Assembly (NCBI RefSeq): GCF_900162665.1
Contig: NZ_LT727812.1
Span: 638,865-702,864, forward strand
DNA length: 64,000 nt
Origin: Oceanobacillus sojae
Lineage (GTDB): Bacteria > Bacillota > Bacilli > Bacillales > Amphibacillaceae
Reading direction: 5' to 3'
Shown: piece after piece, positions 4,503 to 23,108 of the stretch
How positions within the stretch are numbered: position 1 is the stretch's first letter
Layout: every line of letters begins with the position of its first letter
Translations under genes and position numbers: made by a program
The notes under the pieces: generated by a model
The model's input: only the letters and a program-made list of their open reading frames with translations
Databases searched by the model: none
Told to the model about the DNA's origin: nothing

Positions 4503-4957
4503 TCACAAATGCTTTTGTTTGCAATATTTATAATAAATAACCGACTTCTGATACAATCCGTGATCTTTTAATTCATTTGCATAATAAAATAAGTCTCTGA
4601 GGCTGAATTCTTCTTCCCTCTCCGATCTTTTTTCATAAATTATTAAATTACGGTCATTTGCTGTATTCACAACAGATTTCTCAGACTGACGGTGTGTTAC
4701 AGAAATATCTGATGAAATAATATTTCCAGACATCTCTAAATACTCATGAACCGGTCCAATCCATTTAAAGTTCCTGTCACGTTTTACCAGACAATTCCTC
4801 CGATAACTGAAAGCCCGGTTACCAAATTCATCAAAAGCAATATGATACAGCATCGAAACAGAATCTATCGAACCATCCAACTCTCCTTTCAGCTTTTTAA
4901 ATTTTTCTGACCCTTTTCTTCATTTTTTACAATCATACAAAGGCTTACTTTTATCAT
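4503..4957 (-). pseudogene. Decayed GT2 glycosyltransferase with internal deletion and lost C-terminus
   Basis: The only long open stretch (125 codons) lacks a normal beginning. It matches the middle of GT2 enzymes with a TPR tail: DSVSMLYHIAFDEFGN, YRRNCLVKRD, WIGPVHEYLE and RDLFYYANELKDHGLY. Just upstream, in another frame, an ATG at 4957 begins the classical N-terminal motif SLCMIVKNEE, which runs into a stop after 22 codons. The catalytic GT-A core between these pieces (about 90 residues expected from the family pattern) is missing and the frame shifts at the join. The C-terminal TPR part is also absent. I infer a deletion plus frameshift in a once complete gene of the neighbouring glycan cluster. 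Confidence 0.75.
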
Positions 4958-5155
4958 ATCTACACCACCAATACACAAGATATAATAATATATGTTACCT
5001 CGGTATTATCTGAAACGAAGAAATGAAAAATGGTTGTATGAACCTTTTCAGATCAATTATCAAAAATATTTAATGAAAGATTCACCGTTCCGGATAAAAA
5101 TAGAATGACTTCATATATATAAATAGAAACATTATAAAAGAACGGAGGCATTCTA

Positions 5156-6439
5156 TTGAAGGATATTACTGCGATTCTCATTCTTTATCCTGATGCGGCA
5201 GCAATTCATAAAGCTTTAGAATCTTTAAAAAGGATCGACTCCAGATTACATTCTGTTATTGTTCTCCATGGAAAGGATATGTCTTTAACAATAGCTTCTG
5301 ACTATACTCATTTTAAACAAATTCAATCGATTATAGTAAAAGAAAATGACCCCGGGAAAACATTGAATGATATAATCCAAAAAATCAACAGTTCCTATGT
5401 ATTATTTCTTCATGATACAGATTATCTTTCTCCTGCTATTCAAGCCCGTTCCCTTCACCTTATTCAATCAGATTCATTTTTAACAACCACCTTTCATAAT
5501 CGAAACATTACTGTTCAACGCCCATTGCTTGTGTCTGCCACTTTTCTTAAAAAGCAGCAATTCCTGTTAAACTCCCAGCTCCCGTTTAAGGAGGCTCTTC
5601 TTCCTGCCTGGCTTTCCGATAAATCAAGTTCAGAGAAGCTCTGTAAAGAAGGTCTGGTGTTGCAGTCAAGAAGGAACAGCTCTGCCACAACACTGGAAAA
5701 ACAAAAATTTATGCAGAAGTATCAGTTGAATAAAATCAAAACGACAAATCTCAGCCTCTCTATTCTCATTTCGAACTTTAATATGGAGCAATATGTAGAA
5801 ACAGCAATTGCATCTTGCCTGCTTCAGAATGAACTGCCGGAACAGGTACTAATTATAAATGACGGATCAACTGATAACTCTTCAAATCGACTTAACCGGT
5901 GGGACGATGGAAACCTGGTGAGGATTTTTGAAAAAGAGAACGAGGGAAAGGCAATCGCTTTAAATCATTTATTACCTTACGTTACATCTGATTTCATCTT
6001 AGAACTTGACGCTGACGATTGGCTGGATCCTGATGCTGTTTCTGTTATCAAAGAACTCTTGGCTGACCTCCCTCTGCATACAGCTGTACTATACGGGAAT
6101 CTTCGAAAGTGGAAGCAATTAAAAGAGGATATTCTTTTTAAAGGCATAGCCAAAGGGAAAATTATCAATGGTAAAGCGGACATACTCTCCTATCGCCTTC
6201 CCCTGGGTCCAAGAATATACCTTACTTCTGCTTTAAAAAAAATCGGCGGCTTTCCCGTGATTGCATTTAAAGATGGAAGGCTTTATGAAGATGTCAGTGT
6301 GTTAAATCAGCTAATCAAGTATGGCCGTTTCCAATATCATGACTTTACAGTATATAATGTACGAGAACATAAGGAGAGTATCACCAAAACTAATCGTCCG
6401 GAATGGAATGAATTCTTGAAATCAATTAAGGAACCATAA
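5156..6439 (+). CDS. Two-module GT2-family glycosyltransferase
   Basis: A protein of 427 residues. Residues about 200-420 form a GT2 GT-A domain: LSILISNFNMEQYVETAIAS, then INDGSTDNS, NEGKAIALN and the nucleotide/metal motif LELDADDWLDPDA. Residues 1-195 look like a second, degenerate GT-A module in which FLHDTDYLSP takes the place of the DxD region; the usual DGSTD segment is not visible. TTG is the start, eight bases after GGAGG. It lies between the decayed GT2 and a convergent GT61 gene. I infer a role in building a surface polysaccharide; sugar and acceptor are unknown. Confidence 0.85.
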   Translation: MKDITAILILYPDAAAIHKALESLKRIDSRLHSVIVLHGKDMSLTIASDYTHFKQIQSIIVKENDPGKTLNDIIQKINSSYVLFLHDTDYLSPAIQARSLHLIQSDSFLTTTFHNRNITVQRPLLVSATFLKKQQFLLNSQLPFKEALLPAWLSDKSSSEKLCKEGLVLQSRRNSSATTLEKQKFMQKYQLNKIKTTNLSLSILISNFNMEQYVETAIASCLLQNELPEQVLIINDGSTDNSSNRLNRWDDGNLVRIFEKENEGKAIALNHLLPYVTSDFILELDADDWLDPDAVSVIKELLADLPLHTAVLYGNLRKWKQLKEDILFKGIAKGKIINGKADILSYRLPLGPRIYLTSALKKIGGFPVIAFKDGRLYEDVSVLNQLIKYGRFQYHDFTVYNVREHKESITKTNRPEWNEFLKSIKEP

Positions 6440-6466
6440 ATAATAATGCTGCTGTACACTATCCCA

Positions 6467-6512
6467 TTTTCAAAAATTCAGATGCTTCTTTGAGCACCTG
6501 AATTTTTGAAAT
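6467..6512. terminator. Bidirectional terminator between convergent glycosyltransferases
   Basis: TTCAAAAATTCAG (6469-6481) pairs with CTGAATTTTTGAA (6498-6510). It lies between the two convergent stops and can serve both strands, although the T-tract is part of the stem. Confidence 0.6.
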
Positions 6513-6520
6513 AATCCAGA

Positions 6521-7621
6521 CTAATCTATCCCTTCCTTCTCCAGGATCTCCGATATTTTTTTCACATCCACTACAAGGTTTTGGGTGACTTCATGCTTTG
6601 TAGATACAGGGTTAGCCTTTCTGCACTTCAAAAAACGATAATCCAAATCCAGATATTGTCCAATTTTTACGAATTCGTCCGACGTAGATGTGAATAACTG
6701 AATGATTTTTGTTCCAGGCTGACAGAACATTAAATTGGCGAACCCGGCACCGTTTGTACTTATAATTACCTTTGCTGAAGCAAAAATATTAATTTGTTCC
6801 TCCACAGTTAAGGTACTTAATACAATTTTTTTAAATCCTTTCTTAGTTAATAGCTCCATGAGTTTTCCTTCATTGGCAACTTTTCTCCACGAAGCATCTT
6901 CACGGCTGATATAGATTCGATCATAGTGATTGGCGGTTACATTGCGATTTTCCTTCAAAAATGAGCTACGCAGGAATTCAATTGTCCATTTCACACAGGT
7001 GCCTGCGTTAAATGGTACAGATGGCAAAATCAATTGGTCGGCTTTTACACGCTCTCCCGGCATAAGCTGTAAAATTTTATCCTCAGGGATTCCAAGCATT
7101 TTAATTGTTTCCTGCTGAAATGGCAATGTTAAAGGAGGCAGAACATATTTATCTATCTTAAATCCGCTGAGCTGCAGTAAATGATAACGTCCCAATGTAT
7201 CATGCAGCCAGTGCCAGTAATTGGTATGCCCGGCCCAGGCCAGAACCCCTAATGTTCCTTTAAAAGAGGAAGCAGAAGGGATAGTTTTGGCTGCGATCTT
7301 CTCGAAATAATTCCAATATAAATGAAAAACCATATCGCGATAGTATGTGTGGTCAGGTGCTAGTGCATAAACCATACCTTCCCCTTTATCACACATCCAT
7401 ATGCTCCCTTTTTCTATCTTCGCTACATAGGATTTATCAAACTTGTGAGTTTCTCCAAACTTTGGCGGCTTTACCCAATCAACCCATTCCGGCAGATCCC
7501 CTTTGGGAAGTGTATATGTTACTGTTTCATCCGTATAGAATTCTTTGTAAGCATCATGTATATCCGCTTTTGGCGTTGCTTTTTCAATCCAATCCTTTGT
7601 ATGAGTATATAAATCTGACAT
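6521..7621 (-). CDS. GT61-family (DUF563) glycosyltransferase
   Basis: A protein of 366 residues with the GT61 pattern found in capsular polysaccharide enzymes: HTNYWHWLHDTLGRYHLL near 133, then RIYISREDASWRKVANE near 240, and a C-terminal sensor-like block VIISTNGAGFANLMFCQPGT. No membrane segments are seen, so it is probably a cytoplasmic or peripheral glycosyl transfer enzyme. ATG follows GAGGGGATGTATAT. It is divergent from the CapF gene across a 165-base promoter region containing a sigmaK-like site. Members of this family transfer pentoses or GlcNAc in other systems; the sugar here is unknown. Confidence 0.85.
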   Translation of the reverse strand: MSDLYTHTKDWIEKATPKADIHDAYKEFYTDETVTYTLPKGDLPEWVDWVKPPKFGETHKFDKSYVAKIEKGSIWMCDKGEGMVYALAPDHTYYRDMVFHLYWNYFEKIAAKTIPSASSFKGTLGVLAWAGHTNYWHWLHDTLGRYHLLQLSGFKIDKYVLPPLTLPFQQETIKMLGIPEDKILQLMPGERVKADQLILPSVPFNAGTCVKWTIEFLRSSFLKENRNVTANHYDRIYISREDASWRKVANEGKLMELLTKKGFKKIVLSTLTVEEQINIFASAKVIISTNGAGFANLMFCQPGTKIIQLFTSTSDEFVKIGQYLDLDYRFLKCRKANPVSTKHEVTQNLVVDVKKISEILEKEGID

Positions 7622-7672
7622 ATATACATCCCCTCGTTTTCAATTAACAACCTTGCCTATGCCCTATTTTTT

Positions 7673-7700
7673 CACATTTCGCCGGATACTCCATAATATG
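7673..7700 (+). promoter_or_regulatory. sigmaK-like promoter for the capF-sulfotransferase operon
   Basis: CACA (7673-7676), 15 bases, then CATAATATG (7692-7700). The known sigmaK consensus is mACm-N15/16-CATAnnnTA, and only the last base differs. This is a pattern match by eye, not a mapped start. Confidence 0.5.
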
Positions 7701-7720
7701 TAGAAAAGTATTCAAAGGTG
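7692..7720 (-). promoter_or_regulatory. sigmaK-like promoter for the GT61 gene, sharing the -10
   Basis: On the minus strand CACC (7720-7717), 16 bases, then CATATTATG (7700-7692). The -10 is the complement of the -10 on the other strand, because CATAATATG is nearly palindromic. If real, the two divergent genes are switched on together late in the mother cell. Confidence 0.42.
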
Positions 7721-7786
7721 TTGAACAATCGTCTATTCACACCGATTGAGTACAAACATGGGTAATAGAAACTGGAGGTTCATAAC

Positions 7787-8929
7787 ATGATAAACGTAAC
7801 CGTAACCGGTGCAGGGGGATTTATCGGCAAGAATCTGATTGATAGACTGCGCAGGGAAAAAGGAGTCAAGCTCAAACAATATCGTCATGGGGATGACCTG
7901 TCATTACTGCATGCATATTTAAATGATTCGGATATCATCTACCATTTAGCGGGAGTAAACAGACCACAAAATAAGGATGAATTTGAGAGTGTTAATAGAG
8001 GACTTACGGAATCCATAGTCAGCTATTTAATAGATCATCATAAAACCCCAAAAATCGTTTTCGCCTCATCCGCTCAGGCTGCGCATGATAACCCTTATGG
8101 TTTGAGTAAAAAAGCTGCAGAAGATGTTCTTAAAACTTATCGTATGAAGACCGGTGCAGATGTGTGCATTTACCGTTTACCAGGCGTCTTCGGCAAGTGG
8201 TGCAAGCCGCATTATAACTCAGTGGTGGCTACCTTTTGCCAGGAAATTGCTCATGATAAAGATATTGAAATCCATGATGCGGACAAAATGCTTGAGCTCG
8301 TATATATTGATGATGTCATAGATAGTTTTATCCATTGCCTTGAACAGAAAAAGCAGGAAAAGAATCTCTATTATTCTATTCCTCAGACCTTCCATACAAC
8401 GGTGGGCGAGCTGGCCCAAAAACTATACGAAATAAAGAAAGTACGGGAATCTCTGATTATACCTGACCTGTCTGATAAATTAATGAAATATCTGTATACG
8501 ACCTATCTATCTTATTTAGACACTAATAATTTCTCATATGAATTGCCTGTTCATCAGGATGACAGAGGCAGTTTAGTTGAATTAATTAAATCACACCAGG
8601 CCGGGCAGGTTTTTATATCAACCTCACACAAGGGCGTCATAAGAGGAAACCATTACCACCATACAAAGGTAGAGAAATTTTGTGTCCTCAAAGGGGCAGC
8701 AGCCATTAAATTAAGGAAAATGGATTCTGATAAACTGATTACCTATCACGTGACAGATCAGAATATTGAAATTGTAGATATCCCTCCAGGATATACACAC
8801 TCGATTGAAAACGTCACAGACGGTGAGATAATTGTTATGTTTTGGGCAAATGAATTGTTTGATCCGGATAACCCGGATACGATCTATTTGGATGTTCAGC
8901 CAAATGAAGCTGATGAAAAGAAAGGATGA
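7787..8929 (+). CDS. CapF-like bifunctional sugar-nucleotide epimerase/reductase
   Basis: A protein of 380 residues in two parts. Residues 1-240 are an extended SDR domain with the NAD(P) motif GAGGFIGK (8-15) and YGLSKKAAE. Residues about 245-375 are a cupin with DDRGSLVELI, GVIRGNHYHHTKVEKF (metal-binding His) and PPGYTHSIEN. This order is that of Staphylococcus aureus CapF, which acts with CapE and CapG to make UDP-N-acetyl-L-fucosamine. A CapE-like gene lies about 2 kb downstream on the other strand; no CapG (2-epimerase) is visible. ATG follows GGAGG. The stop is seven bases before the sulfotransferase start, so the two are almost certainly one transcript. Confidence 0.87.
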   Translation: MINVTVTGAGGFIGKNLIDRLRREKGVKLKQYRHGDDLSLLHAYLNDSDIIYHLAGVNRPQNKDEFESVNRGLTESIVSYLIDHHKTPKIVFASSAQAAHDNPYGLSKKAAEDVLKTYRMKTGADVCIYRLPGVFGKWCKPHYNSVVATFCQEIAHDKDIEIHDADKMLELVYIDDVIDSFIHCLEQKKQEKNLYYSIPQTFHTTVGELAQKLYEIKKVRESLIIPDLSDKLMKYLYTTYLSYLDTNNFSYELPVHQDDRGSLVELIKSHQAGQVFISTSHKGVIRGNHYHHTKVEKFCVLKGAAAIKLRKMDSDKLITYHVTDQNIEIVDIPPGYTHSIENVTDGEIIVMFWANELFDPDNPDTIYLDVQPNEADEKKG

Positions 8930-8935
8930 TACCAC

Positions 8936-9673
8936 ATGTCAACAAATAAAACATATACATGCCAGGAAGATGATATTTGTCTAGTCGCCTATCCAAAATC
9001 CGGTAACAACTTTTTACTATTTCTCGTTACTGCGCTGTTATATCGAAAAAAAATGGACTGGGCCACGAAAGGCGAAATGATTCAAAACGTGGCAAGTGAA
9101 CCAATTGAAAATTTGCCTTCCCCGCATCTTGTATGGAGTCACAATGGTTATGACGCATCCTACCCAAAGGTCATCTACCTGGTAAGGGATCCTAGGGACG
9201 TCGTTATTTCATATCATCATCACTTCCAGAAGTATTATAATGAAAGCCGGCATTTCGATGCATTTTTTACAGCTTTTATGGATGGCGAGATTGATCCCGG
9301 AATGTGGGATGCTCAAGTAGAAAGCTGGCTGGATAATCAGGACAAAGTGAAAAATGGTTTCCTGCTTATAAAATATGAAGATCTTCTTGCAGATACTGCG
9401 AAAGAAGCAAAAAGATTGATAACCTTCCTAAACTTAAACAAAACGGAACAGGAAATCAACGAAGCTGTTCAGTGGGCTTCTTTTGATAATATGAAAGCAT
9501 TGGAGCAGAAACAAAAGAAACATTTAAATGGTCCTTCGCAGTCAGCCAATCCTGCCCTCCCATTTGTAAGAGAAGGCAAAGCAAATAAATGGAAATCTGT
9601 TTTAAGCAAAGATCAGCAGCAGCAAATCAAGCAAACTTTCAGTAAAACTTTATCAAAGCTCGGATATATTTAA
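8936..9673 (+). CDS. PAPS-dependent sulfotransferase (Sulfotransfer_1 domain)
   Basis: A protein of 245 residues with both PAPS-binding signatures. YPKSGNNF (19-26) is the 5'-phosphosulfate-binding loop, and RDPRDVVISY (84-93) carries the 3'-phosphate-binding Arg and Ser. The C-terminal FVREGKANKWKSVLS matches the usual RKGxxGDWK-type segment. It would transfer sulfate from PAPS to a hydroxyl or amino group, here probably on a sugar given the capF and glycosyltransferase neighbours. No signal peptide or membrane anchor is seen, so it acts in the cytoplasm where PAPS is made. Start ATG follows AAAGGA. The PAPS-producing operon lies 3-7 kb downstream. The acceptor is inferred, not shown. Confidence 0.88.
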   Translation: MSTNKTYTCQEDDICLVAYPKSGNNFLLFLVTALLYRKKMDWATKGEMIQNVASEPIENLPSPHLVWSHNGYDASYPKVIYLVRDPRDVVISYHHHFQKYYNESRHFDAFFTAFMDGEIDPGMWDAQVESWLDNQDKVKNGFLLIKYEDLLADTAKEAKRLITFLNLNKTEQEINEAVQWASFDNMKALEQKQKKHLNGPSQSANPALPFVREGKANKWKSVLSKDQQQQIKQTFSKTLSKLGYI

Positions 9674-9687
9674 AAAGCTCTATGTAG

Positions 9688-9818
9688 ACGGGGGCAGGAC
9701 AAAAAGTAAGTGTTTCATTCCAAAACTGAACAATGCACAAATGTAGCGCAGGAAACATACTCGTTCAATCTATGTTTGGATTTTGTCAGATTAAAATACT
9801 TCTGTCCCTGCCCTGTTT
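9688..9818. repeat. Dispersed-type intergenic inverted-repeat element
   Basis: An imperfect terminal inverted repeat flanks about 75 bases: GGGGGCAGGACAAAAAGTA at the left end and TACTTCTGTCCCTGCCCTG at the right. Inner arms (CCAAAACTGAAC and GTTCAATCTATGTTTGG) extend the pairing, so the whole can fold into one long hairpin. Its GGGCxGGACAAAA head resembles the elements at 10789-10860 and 18095-18175. The reading frame through it is an artefact upstream of the next gene. Confidence 0.55.
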
Positions 9819-9844
9819 TCACTTCAGAAAGGTGGGAAAATCGA

Positions 9845-10771
9845 ATGCTAAAATTACTTCTGATTGCAGCAGATACTTCTCATTTTACGAACAGTAATTA
9901 TGCTGCTTTAGAGCAGGAACTGGCAAAGGTGACAGATTTGATGGTTTCCCGCAAATCCGGCCCTATTAAAAAAATATTGTATAAGCTTCCTGAAAAACCG
10001 GATTTCATTTTAATAATAAATGATGTAGGCAAAACATTCGCCCCTGTTGTGACCGGACTGGCTGATATTGGTATACCTGCAGGCCTGATGGTAAATGACG
10101 CACATCGTTTTGTGGAGCAGAGAAGGAGATATATCGAACGAAGTAAGATTCAAACATTCTTTGTTATATGCCGCCATAATTTTTATCATCACTATCCTCT
10201 TCAAAAACATGATCAGGTGTTTTTCCTCCCCCAATTTGCAAATACCTCCATCTTTAAAGACTATAGCAATGAAAAAACAATTGATACGATGATGCTGGGA
10301 GAAGTTTCGCTTCCAAAAATCTATCCTTTAAGAGAAAAAATATTACAGCATTATAAAAACACCTGGGGGTTTTTCAACCAGCCTCATCCCGGATGGCGGG
10401 ATTTTACAAGCGAGCAAGCAGGAGACGCTTTAATTGGAGAGAATTATGCCAGAGTCATTAATCAGGCAAAATTGTTCTTTGCATGCGGCTCTATACGCCA
10501 GGTGGTGACTTTCAAATATTTTGAGGTGCCGGCGTGCCGAACATTACTGATGGCCCCTGCCGTACCGGAACTTGAAGAGATCGGCTTGATACCGGGAGAA
10601 CACTTTGTGGATATAAATGCAGAAAATTTTTCAGAAAGAGCTGCGTACTATCTTAAAAATACAAAAGAACGGGAAAAAATCACGGAAGCCGGTTTCCGTT
10701 TTGTTCATAACCATCATTCAACCATGCATCGGGCAAGCAAATTAGTCGGGCAGATAACAAGTGTTTTATAA
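9845..10771 (+). CDS. CgeB-like glycosyltransferase (GT1-type, spore maturation family)
   Basis: About 308 residues. The C-terminal half has the CgeB / Glyco_trans_1_2 pattern: YARVINQAKLFFACGS, FKYFEVPACRTLLMAP, GEHFVDINAENFSERAAYYL and a terminal HHSTMHRASKLV helix. The N-terminal half is a divergent DUF3880-like domain. The frame is open from 9710, but that part overlaps an inverted repeat. The ATG at 9845 has AAGGTGGG eight bases ahead and is the real start. In B. subtilis the cgeAB genes are sigmaK-controlled and act on the outermost spore layer. The family therefore supports a spore-surface role for this cluster. Donor sugar unknown. Confidence 0.8.
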   Translation: MLKLLLIAADTSHFTNSNYAALEQELAKVTDLMVSRKSGPIKKILYKLPEKPDFILIINDVGKTFAPVVTGLADIGIPAGLMVNDAHRFVEQRRRYIERSKIQTFFVICRHNFYHHYPLQKHDQVFFLPQFANTSIFKDYSNEKTIDTMMLGEVSLPKIYPLREKILQHYKNTWGFFNQPHPGWRDFTSEQAGDALIGENYARVINQAKLFFACGSIRQVVTFKYFEVPACRTLLMAPAVPELEEIGLIPGEHFVDINAENFSERAAYYLKNTKEREKITEAGFRFVHNHHSTMHRASKLVGQITSVL

Positions 10772-10788
10772 GAGGATATTCAAAATTC

Positions 10789-10860
10789 ACACGAAAAATA
10801 GTGAATCCCCTATAAATGGAGACTCACTATTTTTGATTTTTCTGGGGGTTGTCCCAGTTC
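10789..10860. terminator. Bidirectional terminator within a second repeat element
   Basis: AAAAATAGTGAATC (10795-10808) pairs with GACTCACTATTTTT (10821-10834) between the convergent CgeB-like and CapE-like genes. Read on the minus strand, the block begins AACTGGGACAACCCCCAGAA, like the head of the dispersed repeat. Confidence 0.65.
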
Positions 10861-10937
10861 CATTCCTGAAATTCGTGTTTGTTTGGATATTTTCAATCCT
10901 TTTTTGTGCCTCTTCACGGATTATTGCTTAAAAAAGC

Positions 10938-11930
10938 TTACTTTGTAATAATATCTGCTTTCTTAAGAATTTGTTCAATGTCATTGGACTCCATTAATTC
11001 ATCATCAGATTGGTATCGTGTAAAAGCAACCATTGGTAATTTCTCGTACCTTTTCTTTACCTTTTCGGAAACATTATCTGGTAAAATAACATAGTAATTT
11101 TCATCAAATTTATAAGCATTCCGGGCTTCGGCATTTGATACTAATACCTCATGAATTTTTTCACCCGGGCGGATGCCAACCTCATTTATTTGGATTGCTT
11201 TTTTCGCAAAATGCTTTTCCAGAACACCAATTAAATCGACAATCCGGCATGCTTTCATTTTCATAACAAATATTTCTCCGCCTACTGCTTTTTCAGATGC
11301 GTATATCAATAGATCAATGGCCTGAGAAACAGTTAAAAAGAAGCGTGTCATTTCTCTGGAGGTAAGCGGAACTGCATGATGAGCAGTAATCTGTTCTTTA
11401 AAAAATGGGATAACACTGCCATTTGTTCCAATAACATTGCCTCCGCGGATACAGACAAAACGTGTATGATTGCTTAATTGATCAGCCTGAATGATCAGCT
11501 TTTCTCCGATTGCTTTTGTCAGTCCATAAAAGTTGATTGGTTCAACTGCTTTATCTGTGGAAACATCAATGACCTTCTTCACCTTTTGGTTTAAACTTGC
11601 TTTGATAATATTCTCTGTTCCGTTTACATTCGTTTTTAATGCTTCTAAGGGCTGTTCTTCACATATTGGTACATGCTTCAGTGCTGAGAGATGGAATAAA
11701 TAATCAACATTTTTTGCCGCTTCATTTACCGCTTCAAAATCTCTGACATCTCCAATCACAAATTTCAGGCAGGGATGATCTGAAAACTCTCGTTTCATTT
11801 TTACCTGGGCAAATTCATTACGTGAAAAAATTCTTATTTCCTCCGGCTGAAAGGAAAGCAATTTTTTGACGAGTTCATGGCCCCAGGAACCTGTTCCTCC
11901 AGTAATTAATATTGTGGTATTTTGAAACAC
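10938..11930 (-). CDS. CapE/PseB-type UDP-GlcNAc 4,6-dehydratase
   Basis: An extended SDR of 330 residues. GGTGSWG (11-17) binds NADP. The catalytic set Asp126, Lys127, Tyr135 and Lys139 lies in STDKAVEPINFYGLTKA, as in soluble dehydratases. RPGEKIHEVL near residue 250 is typical of the CapE/PseB/FlaA1 group. It would turn UDP-GlcNAc into a 4-keto-6-deoxy sugar, the first step toward FucNAc- or pseudaminate-like sugars, and the CapF-like enzyme nearby could act next. The start is GTG, preceded by GGAGGAG nine bases away. It converges on the CgeB-like gene and is followed upstream by a 450-base leader region. Confidence 0.87.
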   Translation of the reverse strand: MFQNTTILITGGTGSWGHELVKKLLSFQPEEIRIFSRNEFAQVKMKREFSDHPCLKFVIGDVRDFEAVNEAAKNVDYLFHLSALKHVPICEEQPLEALKTNVNGTENIIKASLNQKVKKVIDVSTDKAVEPINFYGLTKAIGEKLIIQADQLSNHTRFVCIRGGNVIGTNGSVIPFFKEQITAHHAVPLTSREMTRFFLTVSQAIDLLIYASEKAVGGEIFVMKMKACRIVDLIGVLEKHFAKKAIQINEVGIRPGEKIHEVLVSNAEARNAYKFDENYYVILPDNVSEKVKKRYEKLPMVAFTRYQSDDELMESNDIEQILKKADIITK

Positions 11931-12383
11931 ATTTAAACACTCCTCCAGGAATAATACCTATTAGTAATATCAGCAGGGTAATAGTCCGCCCACATCCTTC
12001 AATGGATACATGCGAACATAGCTCATGATGACTTGGATGACAGAAACTCTCCTCAAACAGGTCCGCGAATTCCTTTATTTATTTCCTGTTTGGCAACTGA
12101 CATCAATACATTCAAATAGGTTATACCTCAATTTATGAAAAAACTAGTAGACTGTACATGATAGTCGTTTAAATAAAGGTAAAAGAGGCAATTGGTGCGC
12201 GTCCAAATGTTGTTTGCATATATAGTAAAAGTCTTACAAATAAGCCGAATCTTTTACACTTGCTTTCTAATTATCAACATGCCGGTGCATTTTCAATTAA
12301 TCAGATTAACAAGACTATCAAATTTTATAGATTTTATAATGAAACAGGATAATGTGCTCATCTTATGAAATTTTTGAATCACC
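11931..12383. other. Intergenic region between CapE-like gene and cysQ, 453 bases
   Basis: This contains a possible sigmaK-like promoter for the CapE-like gene (12129-12156) and an approximately 190-base leader. Short frames of fewer than 20 codons with no convincing relatives occur in the leader. No RNA gene or riboswitch fold is recognised. Confidence 0.45.
12129..12156 (-). promoter_or_regulatory. Possible sigmaK-like promoter for the CapE-like gene
   Basis: On the minus strand TACA (12156-12153), 15 bases, then CATAAATTG (12137-12129). It is one base off consensus in each box, and the deviation in the -10 (TG for TA) is the same as in the capF site. Confidence 0.35.
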
Positions 12384-13184
12384 TTAACGCTTCACTAAAA
12401 ACCAGCCATTTTTCAAATTCTCCTGGTTATAATAAAAACGCTCATGATCCTCATAACGCAGCATTGTTCCTCCTGCAGCTTCAACAATTGCCTGCCCTGC
12501 CGCAGTATCCCATTCCATCGTTGGAGCGTAACGTGGATAATAATCTGCTTTCCCCTCTGCAACAAGACAGAATTTCAGGGAGCTCCCGGCTGCTGCCACA
12601 TCGACTACATGGTCATTGCGCAGCTTTTCAATAAATGCTTCCGTTTCTTCTGACATATGTGAGCGGCTCGCAATAACGTTAATAACGTCTCCAGAGTCAG
12701 TAATCGGCAGCTTTTTACTTTGTTCAATCAGCGCTTTATCATCAAAAGGGGCTGCTCGTGAGGCAGCTTCCAATTTAAATGTGCCCAGGCCGGACTGTCC
12801 GAAATAAAACACATCCAGTACGGGAGCATAGATGACACCCAGCACAGGGTAGCCATCCTCCATCAATGCGATATTCACCGTAAACTCCCCGTTTTTGCTG
12901 ATAAACTCTTTTGTACCATCCAGCGGATCTACCAGGAAAAACACAGACCAATGCTTGCGTTTAGTATACGGAATCTCACTTCCTTCTTCACTTAAAATCG
13001 GAATCTCTCCATACGCGTCCTGAAGCTGTTTGATAATTGTCTGATGGGAACGCCGATCAGCCTCAGTCAGCAATGAACCGTCTGATTTCGTTTCAATCGA
13101 ATAATCCTTATCATAAACTTGCAAAATCTCCCGGCCCGCTTTCAGTGATATATCCAGCATGATTTTTAAGCTCACGTTAATCAT
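12384..13184 (-). CDS. cysQ: 3'(2'),5'-bisphosphate nucleotidase CysQ
   Basis: An inositol-monophosphatase-fold enzyme of 266 residues. It hydrolyses PAP (3'-phosphoadenosine 5'-phosphate), the product left after sulfotransferase or PAPS reductase action. Metal motifs are SEEGSE (65-70), [10 protein letters not shown] (85-94) and EWDTAAG (224-230). It is the last gene of the sat-permease-cysC-cysQ operon and its ATG overlaps the end of cysC by eight bases. In an operon without a PAPS reductase, this gene fits removal of PAP made by the nearby sulfotransferase. Confidence 0.92.
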
Positions 13185-13785
13185 TAATGAGGTATCCTTT
13201 CGTTTTCAAATAGGACATAATCGCCTGAACTGATTCTTCAACGCCAGCCACATCTGTATTTACAGTTATTTCCGGCTTCACTGGCGCTTCATAAGGTGCG
13301 TCAATCCCTGTAAATCCTGTAATCTTACCAGCACGTACTTTTTTATAAAGCCCTTTTGGATCACGCGATTTACATGTCTCTAAACTTGCATCTACAAATA
13401 CCTCAATGAATTCATCATGATTCATCATTTTACGTATCTCATCACGATCTTCCCGGTACGGTGAAATAAATGCCGTCAAGGTAACCAGCCCGGCTTCTAC
13501 CATCAGCCTGGAAACCTCTCCAATACGGCGGATGTTTTCTTTACGGTCATCTGGACTGAAACCAAGGTCTTTATTTAATCCATGTCGGATGTTATCTCCA
13601 TCCAAACGGTAAGTCCGTACCCCCATTTGATGAAGTTCTTTTTCCAGTTCAACAGAAATAGTCGATTTGCCGGAACCGGACAGTCCGGTGAACCATAACA
13701 CGACACTCTTATGGTTATTCAACTGTCTGCGATGTTCTTTCGTTACTTTCGAATAATGCCATGAGATATTTTCTGATTCAGTCAT
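13177..13785 (-). CDS. cysC: Adenylylsulfate (APS) kinase
   Basis: A protein of 202 residues that phosphorylates APS to PAPS using ATP. The P-loop GLSGSGKS is at 34-41, followed by the [17 protein letters not shown] block and the [13 protein letters not shown] and RDPKGLYKK lid segments. Length and order match CysC exactly. An ATG at 13806 is in frame, but the strong GGAGGGGG lies inside that extension and points to ATG 13785. The gene starts 12 bases after the permease stop, and its end overlaps cysQ. Confidence 0.94.
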
Positions 13786-13796
13786 AAATCCCCCTC

Positions 13797-15575
13797 CTAA
13801 AACCATATATGATAAACAATTAAAACAGACATTACCATTACTATCAGACTTAGCGGAAGCCCTGCTTTCACGTAATCTATAAATCTGTAGCCGCCAGGTC
13901 CATATACAATTAAATTGGTCTGATAACCGATTGGTGTCACAAAACTGGCTGAAGCTGCCATCGCAATAAGAACCGCTATTCCCATTGGATCAACACTGAG
14001 TGTGTGTGCCATTTCAATCCCGACCGGGAGCACCATAACAGCTGCTGTGCTATTGCTGAGCATCTCCGTAAACAAATTGGTCAAGAGATAAATCAGAAAT
14101 AAAATGACCAGCAGCCCTAATGGTCTGCCAAAGTCCAATAGCATATCTGCACCCCATTCCGCCAATCCTGTTTTTCGCATTGCTGTGCCTATCCCAAATG
14201 AACTGGCAATCAACAATAAAACGTTAAAATGAATATATTTCTTAGCTTCTTGAGGTGTAATAATTTTTGCAGCCAAAAACACCAATACTGTAAGTGCCAT
14301 CGCTTTAAACATACTGAGCCACCCAAATGTCACCACTCCAATCATCCCGAACAACATAATGATGGAAAACCAGCCTTTCATTACACTCTGTTTCAGAGTT
14401 GGCGGTGTATCCAATGGAGACACAACAAAAAAATCATTCGACCGGTCGTATTTTTCAACAAAGTCGGTGCCTGCCAGAAGCAATAATGAGTCTCCAGGCT
14501 TTAAAATAATATCTCCAATCTTACTCTTAATCCGTTCATTATTCCGGTGTACTGCAATGACGCCCGCATCATACCGTGAACGAAACCGCAACTGTTTAAT
14601 GGACTTGGATAAAAGTGACGACTGGTCTGATACGACAGCATCCACTAAATGTGTTGTTCCATCCCTAAGATCCTCAAGGCTAATATTCGTTCCTGTTTCC
14701 AGTTCCAGACCTTTCATCTTTTGCAAATCAGCAATGGTTGAAATCAAACCAGTAAAAATCAGACGATCTCCACTTTGAATAACTGTTGTCGACCTGACCG
14801 GTGAAATCCGTTCATTTCCGCGGATAATTTCAATCAGGTAAAGCCCTTTCAAATCACGCAGTCCTGCCTGATCAACTCGCTTGCCAAGCTGCCCAAAGCT
14901 TTCTGTAACCTGCATTTCAGCAATATATTCTTTAGGTTCTTCTTTCCTTCTCTGACTAAATCCTTTGTTATCCGGAAGCAATTTATATCCAATAGTAAAT
15001 AAATAAATGAGCCCGATTAAAGTGGCAGGAATACCAACTGCAGCTAGAGTGAATAATGAAAATCCCTCCAGGCCAAAGTCCAGCAGTAACCCGTGGATGA
15101 CGAGGTTCGTGGATGTTCCCATTAAGGTTATCGTCCCGCCTAAAATGGTGGCATATGACAATGGGATCAAAAACTTGGAAGGAGCAATCCCGCGGTCTTC
15201 ACACCATTTTTTTATAATTGGAGTAAGTGCCACAACAATCGGGGTATTATTTAAAAATGCTGAAAATGCGGATGTGGGCACAAAGAATCGCATCATAGCA
15301 CCTCTGGGTGAGCGGCTGTTCTTCAGCCATTTTTCCATCATTTGATTGATCAAGCCGCTTTTCTGTACAACACCGGCAACGATAAACAATAATGCAATCG
15401 TCAGCATTCCCTCATTAGAAAAACCGCTCAATGCCTCATCAACTGTCAATATACCGGATAGCATCAAAATAACGAGCACGGAGAAAATAACCATGTCTGG
15501 CCGGGCCGCTTCGAGAATCAGAACAGCAAACATAGTCAGAAGTAAAATCAAAACAAACATCATTTCCAATGTCAT
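13797..15575 (-). CDS. SLC13/DASS-family permease with central TrkA-C (RCK-C) domains, probable sulfate transporter
   Basis: A membrane protein of 592 residues. Two hydrophobic halves flank a cytoplasmic region (about 205-385) with two TrkA-C-like segments ([12 protein letters not shown] and [13 protein letters not shown]). Each half has a DASS hairpin signature: [11 protein letters not shown] near residue 105 and [11 protein letters not shown] near 508, followed by [11 protein letters not shown]. This architecture is seen in SAC1/SLT-type sulfate transporters and in broader anion permeases. Its place between sat and cysC argues for sulfate as substrate. That is an inference from context, since the family also carries dicarboxylates. 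Confidence 0.85.
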
Positions 15576-15642
15576 AGAGTATCAGATCCTCTTTTAGTGC
15601 GTATTCAAAAAGAAACGCACAACACTTTTTGAACAGCAATTA

Positions 15643-16797
15643 TTATTTTTTATTCTTCATTCCTTTTATCAGCACATCGGCAACCTCCGGACGTGAAAAT
15701 TCTTTTGGCGGACGTTTACCTTTCCGAAGCATTTCACGCACCATTGTACCGCTTAGATGGACATGGTTTTCATCGCCATGCGGACAAGTTTTCGCTGACG
15801 CCATATTTTCACATGCTTTGCAGTAAAACGCATGTTCAAATTTAAAAATTTGAATGCCTAGTTCTTCTTCATATTTTCCAATCAGCTCTTGTGCATCGTA
15901 CGTGCCATAATAATCTCCGACACCGGCATGATCACGTCCTACGATGAAATGCGTGCAGCCATAATTTTTACGTACGATAGCATGCAGAATAGCTTCTTTC
16001 GGACCGGCATAACGCATTGCTCCCGGATAGATAACAAGGCGTACACGATTTCCCACATAATAGTTTTTCAAAATCACTTCATAGCTTTTCATCCGGACAT
16101 CGGCCGGAATATCATCAGACTTGGTTTCACCAACAAGCGGATTCAACAGTAATCCATCCACCGCCTCAAGAGCAGTCTTTTGAATATGTTCATGAGCACG
16201 ATGAACCGGATTCCGTGTCTGGAAACCGACGATGGTTTTCCAGTTCAGGTCTGCAAACATTTGCCGCGTTTCAGCCGGATCCATATAATATGCTGCAAAC
16301 TGATTATGATCCGGACGTTGAAGCAATGTAACCGGCCCGCCAAGGTATATATTTCCTTTCTCATAAACTTTCTTCACGCCTGGATGAGCTGTGTCAGTCG
16401 TCCCATAGATATTTACCGCTTCCTTCTTTCTATCATAAGCATACTTTTCCTCCAGGATGATTGTCCCATAAATAATACCGTCTGTTCCTCTAAGGGCAAT
16501 CTGTTCACCAATGTTAAGGTTTTGAGCCTGTTCTTCTGTTACAGGCAGTGTAATCGGTATACTCCAGATTGTGCCATCCGCAAGGCGTGTATGCTCAATA
16601 ACATTTTCATAATCAGCCCGGCCCATAAATCCTTTCAGCGGACTAAATCCTCCTATTCCAATCAGTTCCAAATCAGAGAGCACCCAGGAATTCACAGATA
16701 GGGTGGGAAGCTTTTCAGCATTCCTGATTGCTTCATCTTTTTTCTTTCCAGTTAATTCACGGCAGATTAATCTTCCGCCATGTGGTTGATTAACCAT
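15643..16797 (-). CDS. sat: Sulfate adenylyltransferase (ATP sulfurylase)
   Basis: A protein of 384 residues making APS from sulfate and [15 protein letters not shown] (193-204) contains the catalytic HxxH-type motif, and [17 protein letters not shown] is the second nucleotide-binding motif. Near the C-terminus [16 protein letters not shown] has the metal-binding Cys pattern of the Bacillus-type enzyme. AGGAGGCGG precedes the ATG. It is the first gene of the sulfate-activation operon. I see no SAM riboswitch or CymR-type context upstream and no cysH or sulfite reductase in the window. Confidence 0.94.
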
Positions 16798-16852
16798 AAA
16801 ACCGCCTCCTGATTCCAGTTTTCATTACGCATGACTCCATTTCATGTCACAA

Positions 16853-16867
16853 ATGATTTAGAATCAT
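16853..16867. promoter_or_regulatory. Small inverted repeat upstream of sat
   Basis: ATGATT-TAG-AATCAT, a perfect six-base-arm palindrome about 60 bases ahead of the sat start. It could be an operator; no protein can be assigned. Confidence 0.3.
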
Positions 16868-16880
16868 GTTTCATAACAGA

Positions 16881-16906
16881 ATACCCCGGCTATCAAGCCA
16901 GGGTAT
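16881..16906. terminator. Hairpin after the DUF2642-like genes
   Basis: ATACCCCGGCT (16881-16891) pairs with AGCCAGGGTAT (16896-16906). The T-run is on the plus side, so on the minus strand, where the DUF2642-like genes end, the tract is weak. Confidence 0.5.
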
Positions 16907-17147: not shown

Positions 17148-17543
17148 TTACGTATTACTGACAAATTCAATTTTTTCAATTTGGACCAATACTTGTGCGC
17201 CAGAAGCTTCAATAATTATAATATAGTCATCCTGAACTGAAAGCAGTGTTCCAGATATTGTGTCAAAAGGAGTAGTGACCTGCACTTGTTCGTTTACTAA
17301 ACTCAACAGGACCTCTCTAATGGTCGTTGGCGTACCAGGAGTTCCTCCGCCTCCCCATTTACCCAGACTTAAATTTAAATTCTGGCCGCCACCTAAACTG
17401 AATCCAGGTAAATTCAGAGAAAAATTATGACTTAGTGAACTGCCACTGTTCGTATCATTGGCGCTATTGGCTGTAACTAAGTTTTGTGACATCTGGTTTA
17501 ACAAATTTAATAAATTTCTTTGGCGATCTGTTAAATTAGCCAA
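17148..17543 (-). CDS. DUF2642-like protein with Asn/Ser/Gly-rich N-terminus
   Basis: A protein of 131 residues. An N-terminal helix (DRQRNLLNLLNQMSQNL) is followed by a low-complexity segment rich in Asn, Ser and Gly (about 25-72). The C-terminal beta domain resembles that of the 70-residue neighbour: VNEQVQVTTPFDTISGTLL, DDYIIIIEAS, VLVQIEKIEFV. Start is TTG, with AAAGGA about ten bases ahead. The Gly/Asn-rich linker plus a small beta domain is compatible with a structural coat protein. That is an inference; the function is unknown. Confidence 0.68.
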   Translation of the reverse strand: MANLTDRQRNLLNLLNQMSQNLVTANSANDTNSGSSLSHNFSLNLPGFSLGGGQNLNLSLGKWGGGGTPGTPTTIREVLLSLVNEQVQVTTPFDTISGTLLSVQDDYIIIIEASGAQVLVQIEKIEFVSNT

Positions 17544-21387: not shown

Positions 21388-22014
21388 TTAATGGAAAGGT
21401 GGATTGTTGGATTGAAGCACAGCGGGTGCATACCCCTCTTGCATCTGCATCATATCTTGTGCTGCAAGTTGTGGTACTTGATAGTATCCATGTTTATTTT
21501 GATACAAAGAAATTTCATAAGCCATCTCAATACAGTTTGGAATAGAGTCTGCAAGAACTCTTCTTACAACAGGATTCGTTGTTTCCAGTGCTGCTCCGGC
21601 TTTGGCTGGTGCACTTGCTTTAACAGCGCTTAACATACTGAGAGATATCGCTTCATCATTTATTTCTGCAGGTGCTTGCATCGGTTTTTGTGGCTGGGCA
21701 GCTGTTAACCCGTAGGTGAACTGGTTATTCTGCTTCATTTTATAACTTTGTGTCGGCTTTGAAGGAGGCTGTCCTGTTTTAAAACATTCTAAAGTAATGT
21801 TATATTCCTCTTGCATAAATGTTTTTTGACGCTCTAAAATATCGCGAAGCTCTGGGTCGCTTATATGCTCATTTAACATCGTATAAGTGTTCATTGTATT
21901 AATTGCCCCAGATAATACCTCATGAACGTCAAACATTTCATGTCCACCATGGTTCATTTGCGGCGGCACAGCTTTTGCATTCATTTGTTGGTTTTGCATT
22001 TGATTATTTTCCAT
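21388..22014 (-). CDS. CotF-family spore coat protein
   Basis: A protein of 208 residues. The N-terminus is rich in Gln, Asn and Met (about 1-25). A CotF/ferritin-like helical region follows (DVHEVLSGAINTMNTYTMLNEH, RDILERQKTFMQEEYN). It is then broken by a Gln/Pro linker (about 75-115), with the second helical half ending NPVVRRVLADSIPNCIEMAYEISLYQNKHGYYQVP. CotF-type proteins sit in the inner spore coat. ATG follows AGGAGGATTTT, and a strong terminator follows directly. A DUF3231 gene lies upstream in the same direction, 110 bases away. Confidence 0.83.
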   Translation of the reverse strand: MENNQMQNQQMNAKAVPPQMNHGGHEMFDVHEVLSGAINTMNTYTMLNEHISDPELRDILERQKTFMQEEYNITLECFKTGQPPSKPTQSYKMKQNNQFTYGLTAAQPQKPMQAPAEINDEAISLSMLSAVKASAPAKAGAALETTNPVVRRVLADSIPNCIEMAYEISLYQNKHGYYQVPQLAAQDMMQMQEGYAPAVLQSNNPPFH

Positions 22015-22124
22015 AAAATCCTCCTAGTTCCTTTTCCTTCAATAATATGGTGCTAAAATAATGGTCAAATATACGCTTTTTTGAAAAGGTTCTAGAATTT
22101 ACAAAAGGAAATTGATTTTGTTGT

Positions 22125-23108
22125 TCAAACTTCCATTTTCGGCGGCTCCTCCATCCAGCCATTATTGAGCATAATCGTTAGCCCTTCTCTTGCGTATTGA
22201 TAGATATCTTTAGCCTTTATTCCAAGACTCGCATTCAAATCATTACGCATACTGAAATTAGCACCAAAGCTTTGGGCTCCAAGAGATACGTTACAAAAAA
22301 AGAAGGTAGTCATCATCATGAGTTTATCTGAAAAAGGTGCGGACATTGAACTTGTCACAGTGCCTCCAGGGGTAGCTGGTGATTGAATATCATCCCGTAG
22401 AAGGATTTCCCCAGTTTCATTTAAAATTTCTTTTGAAAGTTCCTTCCCTTTTGTAAAATATTTTTGGACTTCTTTATTCTTGGCACATTGTGCAAAACCT
22501 GCCATCAATTGCATACCGGTAATATTAACCTCGATATTTTGATAAAGATATGAAAACTCTACCGTATTCAGGACTCGTTTATTGCCAAAAATATTTGTCC
22601 CTTTTGTGTAATTTTTGTCCGTAATGTAATCAACCGACTTTGGCATAGAGATATAATTTGGACGGGGAAGAAGCCCTTCCTCCAGTAAATATTGAGTGAA
22701 ATGATTATAATAGGCCTGCGAAATATGAATAATATCCATATAAAGCTTAATAATATCTTCACGGTAAGAAACGGTTATATGGAGAGCATACATAGACAGG
22801 CTGAGCTTTTTTAATATTCGGCAAAACATAATATCAAAACCATTCTCGTATAACCTGGGCGCTTCCAAATTCACATCTTCATGAGTAAATCCTTTGGGAG
22901 CTGCTGCGCCTTCCGCTTGAATCATCGATTGCATTTCTTCGACTTTGGGATGGAGTTTTTTCCATAACCCTGACATTAGATTTCGGGCTTTTTCATTCTC
23001 TGCTGTCTCAATAAAATATTCCAAATATCTCAGAATTAATGTTTTCTTCTGGTACGTCATCCATAGAGCACCGAGTTCTGATGAAGTCATTTTAGGTTTT
23101 TTGGGCAT
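22125..23108 (-). CDS. DUF3231-family protein
   Basis: A protein of 327 residues made of two similar all-helical halves (about 5-165 and 175-325), each ferritin-like in pattern. The first carries LGALWMTYQKKTLILRYLEYFIETAEN and the second VEFSYLYQNIEVNITGMQLMAGFAQCAKNKEV. DUF3231 proteins are common in sporulating Bacillaceae, often in several copies; their biochemical role is not established. ATG follows GGGAGGCAAAGCGCTA. A sigmaG-like promoter lies 42-70 bases upstream, fitting forespore expression. No metal ligand set can be claimed. Confidence 0.82.
   Translation of the reverse strand: MPKKPKMTSSELGALWMTYQKKTLILRYLEYFIETAENEKARNLMSGLWKKLHPKVEEMQSMIQAEGAAAPKGFTHEDVNLEAPRLYENGFDIMFCRILKKLSLSMYALHITVSYREDIIKLYMDIIHISQAYYNHFTQYLLEEGLLPRPNYISMPKSVDYITDKNYTKGTNIFGNKRVLNTVEFSYLYQNIEVNITGMQLMAGFAQCAKNKEVQKYFTKGKELSKEILNETGEILLRDDIQSPATPGGTVTSSMSAPFSDKLMMMTTFFFCNVSLGAQSFGANFSMRNDLNASLGIKAKDIYQYAREGLTIMLNNGWMEEPPKMEV

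Follow-up and report, generated by a model that had tools for sequence, protein, structure and literature searches.

A candidate mother-cell system for sulfation of a spore-crust glycan in Oceanobacillus sojae

Introduction

CgeB, CgeD and other transferases are thought, according to the portions consulted of two papers, to have a part in the glycans of the Bacillus subtilis spore crust (PMC10502511, PMC7439481). Here we describe a locus of Oceanobacillus sojae that may sulfate a glycan of this kind. It lies in a stretch of 64,000 nucleotides (nt) of contig NZ_LT727812.1 (positions 638,865 to 702,864, assembly GCF_900162665.1; hereafter the window, with positions counted from its first letter). 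As far as those portions portray the B. subtilis crust glycan genes (cgeB, cgeD, sps, ytc, yfn), the locus resembles them in its CgeB-like and GT2 transferases, in the CotX- and CotZ-family proteins encoded in the same genome, in sigmaK-type promoter sites and in having no exporter in the block. Unlike them, it adds a sulfotransferase, an operon for the sulfate donor 3'-phosphoadenosine-5'-phosphosulfate (PAPS), a GT61 transferase and CapE- and CapF-like enzymes. A word search of these two papers for sulfur terms brought up nothing beyond the name of an assay and a comment about sulfur amino acids (PMC10502511, PMC7439481).

The nearest published idea that we found, going by the part of the source consulted, is the wps-1 cluster of Actinoplanes missouriensis, which is predicted to provide a sulfated sporangium matrix; loss of a gene of the Sat/adenosine-5'-phosphosulfate (APS)-kinase family impairs sporangium formation there (PMC13390465). 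It is likewise a developmental polysaccharide cluster with sulfotransferases; however, it concerns an actinomycete sporangium matrix and not an endospore, uses a Wzx/Wzy pathway and other sulfotransferase families, and its sulfate is predicted (PMC13390465). The same part of that paper describes sulfated polysaccharides as uncommon in bacteria outside cyanobacteria and cites synechan of Synechocystis as a bacterial sulfated polysaccharide (PMC13390465). A sulfated endospore glycan of Bacillaceae was not found in the open-licence literature, among the matches listed. To our knowledge, synechan is an exopolysaccharide of growing cells with no link to spores.

We consider it probable that the locus is a mother-cell system that sulfates a glycan of the spore crust with PAPS from the adjoining sat operon. 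The fuller proposal is of an endospore crust bearing a sulfated deoxy-amino-sugar glycan whose assembly and sulfation both take place entirely in the cytosol of the mother cell with no exporter, the PAPS coming from an operon to which the genome gave no other apparent use; this we hold to be somewhat likelier true than false.

Results

The sulfotransferase and the glycan genes around it

A preliminary description of the window, made from the letters alone, had placed three glycosyltransferases (GT2, GT61 and CgeB-like) and CapF- and CapE-like enzymes side by side with a PAPS-dependent sulfotransferase carrying both PAPS-binding motifs and with an operon of sat, a permease, cysC and cysQ. Pfam and NCBIfam profiles located all ten genes at positions 5156-16797 and bore out each of these assignments.

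The sulfotransferase gene (8936..9673, plus strand) matches the Sulfotransfer_1 profile (PF00685, 7e-41) at 140.7 bits against a cut-off of 22, and hydropathy gives its product no membrane segment. Across 16 aligned sulfotransferases PKSGN (residues 20-24), R84/S92, H69, R212, G214 and W219-K220 are invariant, and the same residues line up with like residues of mouse SULT3A1; we take them to be the 5' and 3' phosphate-binding motifs, the catalytic histidine and the RKG-type C-terminal motif. The structure model (predicted local distance difference test score, pLDDT, 88.4) has a fold resembling cytosolic SULTs.

Homologues of this sulfotransferase occur in 14 of the 159 family genomes searched (hereafter family carriers), which belong to 6 of its 46 genera. 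All of the 14 but G026 keep the order GT61-CapF-sulfotransferase-CgeB-CapE (13 of 14). Because the arrangement recurs in six genera of the family, it is not due to chance. Of 397 genomes drawn from the order, 11 hold sulfotransferase homologues, four of them at a level of at least 40% identity (the window's own, G001, G269 and G349). The block of Fictibacillus G269 (L046) is rearranged and diverged and includes a second sulfotransferase (L046:6657-7460, 40% identical). Near the sulfotransferase of G349 there are only weak CapF- and CapE-like matches (28%), and no GT61 or CgeB match. Pairwise distances of the block genes correlate (0.67-0.89), a figure that lacks a housekeeping control and was not used as evidence.

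The solved folds closest to the sulfotransferase model are small-molecule SULTs, and crust protein genes lie near the block in relatives. Both observations would suit a spore-surface system in which the enzyme acts on a small molecule or on a residue of a crust protein, for example tyrosine, instead of a glycan. We regard this as quite unlikely, because the gene starts 6 nt past the end of the CapF-like gene, with a nucleotide-sugar enzyme on one side and a glycosyltransferase on the other, and because the rest of the block consists of glycan genes that are kept together in the 13 family carriers.

These glycan genes comprise, from left to right, a GT61 glycosyltransferase that is a member of the conserved block (6521..7621, minus strand; PF04577, 4.6e-31); a CapF/WbcJ-like uridine diphosphate (UDP)-sugar epimerase/reductase (7787..8929, plus strand; NF047837 at 1.6e-121, below cut-off; Cap5F, PDB 2zkl, at 4.6e-98 over 370 residues); the CgeB-like glycosyltransferase (9845..10771, plus strand; PF13524 at 1.4e-16, C-terminal part only); and a CapE/PseB-like UDP-N-acetylglucosamine (UDP-GlcNAc) 4,6-dehydratase (10938..11930, minus strand; PF02719, 1.3e-95; PDB 2gn4 and CapE 3vvb), which also matches the PseB (4e-97) and FnlA (2e-75) profiles, both below cut-off. 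Alignment and sequence indicate that the probable start of the CgeB-like gene is the ATG at 9845 and not the GTG at 9710; the structure model of its product was of low quality (pLDDT 59.8) and was set aside. In Staphylococcus, CapE, CapF and CapG form the pathway to UDP-L-FucNAc (N-acetyl-L-fucosamine). The window likewise has a CapE-like and a full-length CapF-like enzyme, but no CapG among its ten genes, and the only PF02350 (UDP-GlcNAc 2-epimerase) match of the host genome (L095) changes frame near its 3' end. The product may therefore be an L-talo sugar.

PAPS supply and its link to the sulfotransferase

The PAPS operon lies on the minus strand and consists of Sat, ATP sulfurylase (15643..16797; TIGR00339, 3.1e-138); a CitMHS/DASS-type permease with TrkA_C domains, probably for sulfate uptake (13797..15575; PF03600 at 3.6e-68, PF02080, PF00939); CysC, APS kinase (13177..13806; TIGR00455, 2.3e-82); and CysQ, the 3'(2'),5'-bisphosphate nucleotidase that clears 3'-phosphoadenosine-5'-phosphate (PAP) (12384..13184; TIGR01331, 1.7e-84). 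The Sat, CysC and CysQ matches are all above cut-off. That this operon serves the sulfotransferase is well supported by the co-occurrence of the two, by their linkage and by the absence of a PAPS reductase match from the genome.

Co-occurrence with cysC, which the preliminary description had suggested examining, is complete in one direction: Sulfotransfer_1 is found in 32 of the 159 family genomes, all 32 among the 91 with CysC and none among the 68 without it. The host genome (4.8 Mb in 18 contigs) has one CysC match, at this locus, and one Sulfotransfer_1 gene, this being the sulfotransferase family that was searched. Within the genus, a Sulfotransfer_1 match is present in 6 of 6 CysC genomes without CysH, in 5 of 14 with CysH and in none of 8 without CysC; one of the six, from G011, carries two in-frame stops. 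For the family as a whole the contrast is weaker, at 9 of 16 CysC genomes without a strong CysH match versus 23 of 75 with one (one-sided p 0.05).

In 11 of the 14 family carriers the sulfotransferase has a CysC at a distance of 3.2-5.7 kb. In 10 of these 11 linked carriers Sat, permease and CysC are arranged as in the window, and CysQ adjoins in 6 of the 10. The window-type operon is replaced in G001 by a PF01507 protein, a 627-residue open reading frame matching CysC, a permease and CysQ, the first two of which, by sequence, are apparently CysD and CysNC. The linked operon of G100 (L060) is decaying, with a split Sat and a CysC fragment, and an intact copy lies elsewhere in that genome (L063); G101 and G026 have the operon apart from the block (L064, L070). 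Genomes holding only other Sulfotransfer_1 genes also have CysC within 20 kb in 15 of 18 cases. Two Oceanobacillus relatives, G007 (L083) and G011 (L084), have neither the block nor a PAPS reductase match, and their other sulfotransferases lie 3-5 kb from cysC.

Two ordinary uses of such an operon were weighed. Assimilatory sulfate reduction usually begins with Sat, CysC and a permease, and 75 of the 91 CysC genomes have a strong CysH-type match, so that the operon might be assimilatory and adjoin the glycan genes by chance. However, PAPS reductase (PF01507) has no match in the host genome or in G019 and G025, the two nearest carriers, and the genome's single CysC stands at this locus, in a linkage that recurs in the 11 carriers. 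We reject this use as very improbable. The other is late-sporulation use of Sat/CysC-type genes to feed spore sulfolactate, as was inferred for yitBA-yisZ and yitCD of B. subtilis in the part of the source consulted (PMC517825). The host genome yielded no match to the phosphosulfolactate synthase ComA (PF02679), with which a B. subtilis control was positive, and no PAPS reductase match to yield sulfite; a role in sulfolactate formation is accordingly rejected as scarcely credible.

SigmaK-like promoters of the block

The pattern AC-N15-18-CATAnnnT was searched in 420 nt upstream of the genes of 14 loci, namely the window and 13 others, with G026 (L059) left out. In the window it occurs before CapF (7674-7699, plus strand; AC-N16-CATAATAT), before GT61 (7693-7719, minus strand; AC-N17-CATATTAT) and before CapE (12130..12155, minus strand; AC-N16-CATAAATT), the last 200 nt before the CapE start. 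The CapF and GT61 sites (7674..7719) are divergent, with -10 boxes overlapping on opposite strands. A site is found before CapF in 14 of 14 loci, GT61 in 11 and CapE in 12 of 14, against a background of 9 of 141 other genes with the pattern within 300 nt. One GT61 miss (L062) results from a start picked too early by the script, the site being visible in the alignment, and the CapF sites of Fictibacillus stand at positions other than elsewhere.

When the stricter pattern CATAnnnTA was required, the promoter regions of GT61-CapF and of CapE yielded no site; it was the relaxed form, conserved across loci, that gave the sites. As a positive control, 8 of 22 upstream regions of crust-module genes showed a sigmaK-like site; among cotX/cotV upstream regions the count was 4 of 11, all of them cotX of three other genera and all at exactly -32. 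GT2 showed the pattern in 4 of 11 loci at scattered places. It was absent before the sulfotransferase and CgeB (0 of 14 each), CysQ (0 of 7), CysC (0 of 12) and DUF2642 (0 of 10). The host genome has a sigmaK gene above the curated cut-off, and a -35 AC favours sigmaK. The sigmaK-like promoters of the preliminary description thus stand for GT61, CapE and CapF with the sulfotransferase and CgeB behind it, and fall away for the sat operon, which has no site.

Spore-crust genes near the block in other genera

That the block belongs to the spore surface is well supported, on the basis of these conserved sigmaK-like promoters and of the cotX/cotV, DUF2642 and GT2 homologues nearby in other genera. 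By Pfam, L058, L044 and L056 encode Coat_X proteins close to the block, and L057 encodes a CotZ protein there. In genome searches the distance from cotX/cotV to the sulfotransferase was 4.2 kb in G001, 5.7 kb in G101, 7.5 kb in G111, 11.8 kb in G100 and 17.9 kb in G033. It was 37 kb in G172, and in the remaining eight carriers the genes were far off or on another contig. The chance of 5 of 14 falling within 20 kb would be about 2e-7 if places were independent; since the genomes are related, this value is only a guide. A CotZ-family gene also lies at about 6 kb in G120, and the CotX and CotZ families are present in all 14 family carriers, the count covering genomes with the block only.

A module of cotX, DUF2642 and GT2 genes is found in G101, G111, G100, G033 and G172 (modules L090, L091, L092, L093, L094). 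In G001, DUF2642 follows cotX/cotV and a GT2 gene stands at the opposite end of the block. The window's own GT2 gene (5156..6439, plus strand; PF00535, 2e-26), possibly CgeD-like, and its DUF2642 gene (17148..17543, minus strand; PF10842, 22.9 bits against a cut-off of 22.7) flank the block on its two sides and are homologous to the module genes of the other genera.

Some further features were noted around these genes. Positions 4503-4978 of the window hold the remnant of a GT2-type gene whose product has 370 residues in L040 and L054, with residues 23-98 and 227-370 unmatched in the window. A Coat_F gene and a DUF3231 gene lie at 21388-23108, a few kb past the block. At L090:7664-16148 a collagen-repeat protein and two GT2-type proteins are encoded between two cotX-DUF2642 pairs, in the manner of an exosporium nap locus. 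Nothing points to a plasmid origin of the locus: of 77 matching plasmid records, the 20 listed are proteobacterial and 24-29% identical.

Exporters in this and other sulfation loci

The permease is the only clear membrane protein of the ten by hydropathy, the CgeB-like protein having one borderline stretch. Neither a flippase nor a Wzy polymerase is encoded among the ten genes, which disfavours a Wzx/Wzy exopolysaccharide. Synthesis in the mother cell would let a glycan reach the surface of the forespore without export, and an exporter-free block would therefore fit a crust system.

For comparison, selected genes were scanned in three other sulfation loci of the family that lie near a like PAPS operon. 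A flippase and a Wzy protein accompany the sulfotransferases and sat operon in G108 (L085), and a flippase with a Wzy-type match just below cut-off does so in G103 (L087). No exporter was found among the seven genes scanned in G007 (L083); a missing exporter nearby is therefore not by itself proof of a spore role. These loci, the exporter-free one included, lend some weight to the view that the product of the block is a sulfated capsule or exopolysaccharide that belongs to growing cells and not to spores, as does the lack of a sigmaK-like site at the sat operon. We nevertheless consider a product of growing cells unlikely, given the conserved sigmaK-like promoters, the cotX/cotV and crust-module neighbours in relatives, and a block of ten genes in which no exporter accompanies the permease.

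Discussion

The preliminary description had read the locus as sulfating a polysaccharide laid on the spores. Two parts of that reading have gained support, the service of the PAPS operon to the sulfotransferase and the place of the block in the spore surface; the sat operon has not yielded the expected sigmaK-like timing signal, and the fold of the sulfotransferase is nearest to small-molecule SULTs.

These last two points belong to a set of observations that weigh against a sulfated crust glycan. The missing site at sat is general, applying to 12 of 12 loci scanned. In addition, about 35 bp before sat (16798-16900), with an AATATrT element that is kept in the nine other loci aligned, are absent from the window, which may reflect a real deletion or an assembly error. 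Both raise the possibility that this strain makes PAPS constitutively or has an impaired supply of it. Exact sigmaK-like sites are also lacking before the host's own cotX and cotV, and CATAnnnT also resembles sigmaE -10 boxes, which makes sigmaE a possible, less favoured factor. For 9 of the 14 family carriers, cotX/cotV lie on a different contig or beyond 18 kb; the host genome is among them, with these genes on contig C18 apart from the block. Fictibacillus G269, with its diverged block, has no match to the CotX or CotZ families. Finally, 7 of the 16 genomes with CysC and no strong CysH match also have no Sulfotransfer_1 gene.

For a sulfated crust glycan, we infer the enzyme activities, the acceptor, the order of steps, the mother-cell timing of PAPS supply and the sulfate on the spore as follows. 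Late in sporulation, the mother cell would make a UDP-6-deoxy-L-hexosamine through CapE and then CapF, and the GT2, GT61 and CgeB-like transferases would build this sugar into a glycan on the forespore crust. The permease would import sulfate, which Sat and CysC would activate to PAPS. The cytosolic sulfotransferase would then move sulfate from PAPS to a hydroxyl of the sugar or glycan, and CysQ would clear the leftover PAP. An exporter would be unneeded, as what surrounds the forespore is the cytosol of the mother cell.

The genes of the locus form a defined set open to deletion, and their predicted product can be stained for. If the proposal is correct, it would demonstrate that a surface glycan can be sulfated by a cytosolic route, and halophilic Bacillaceae with a sulfated crust would have spores whose surface is strongly charged.

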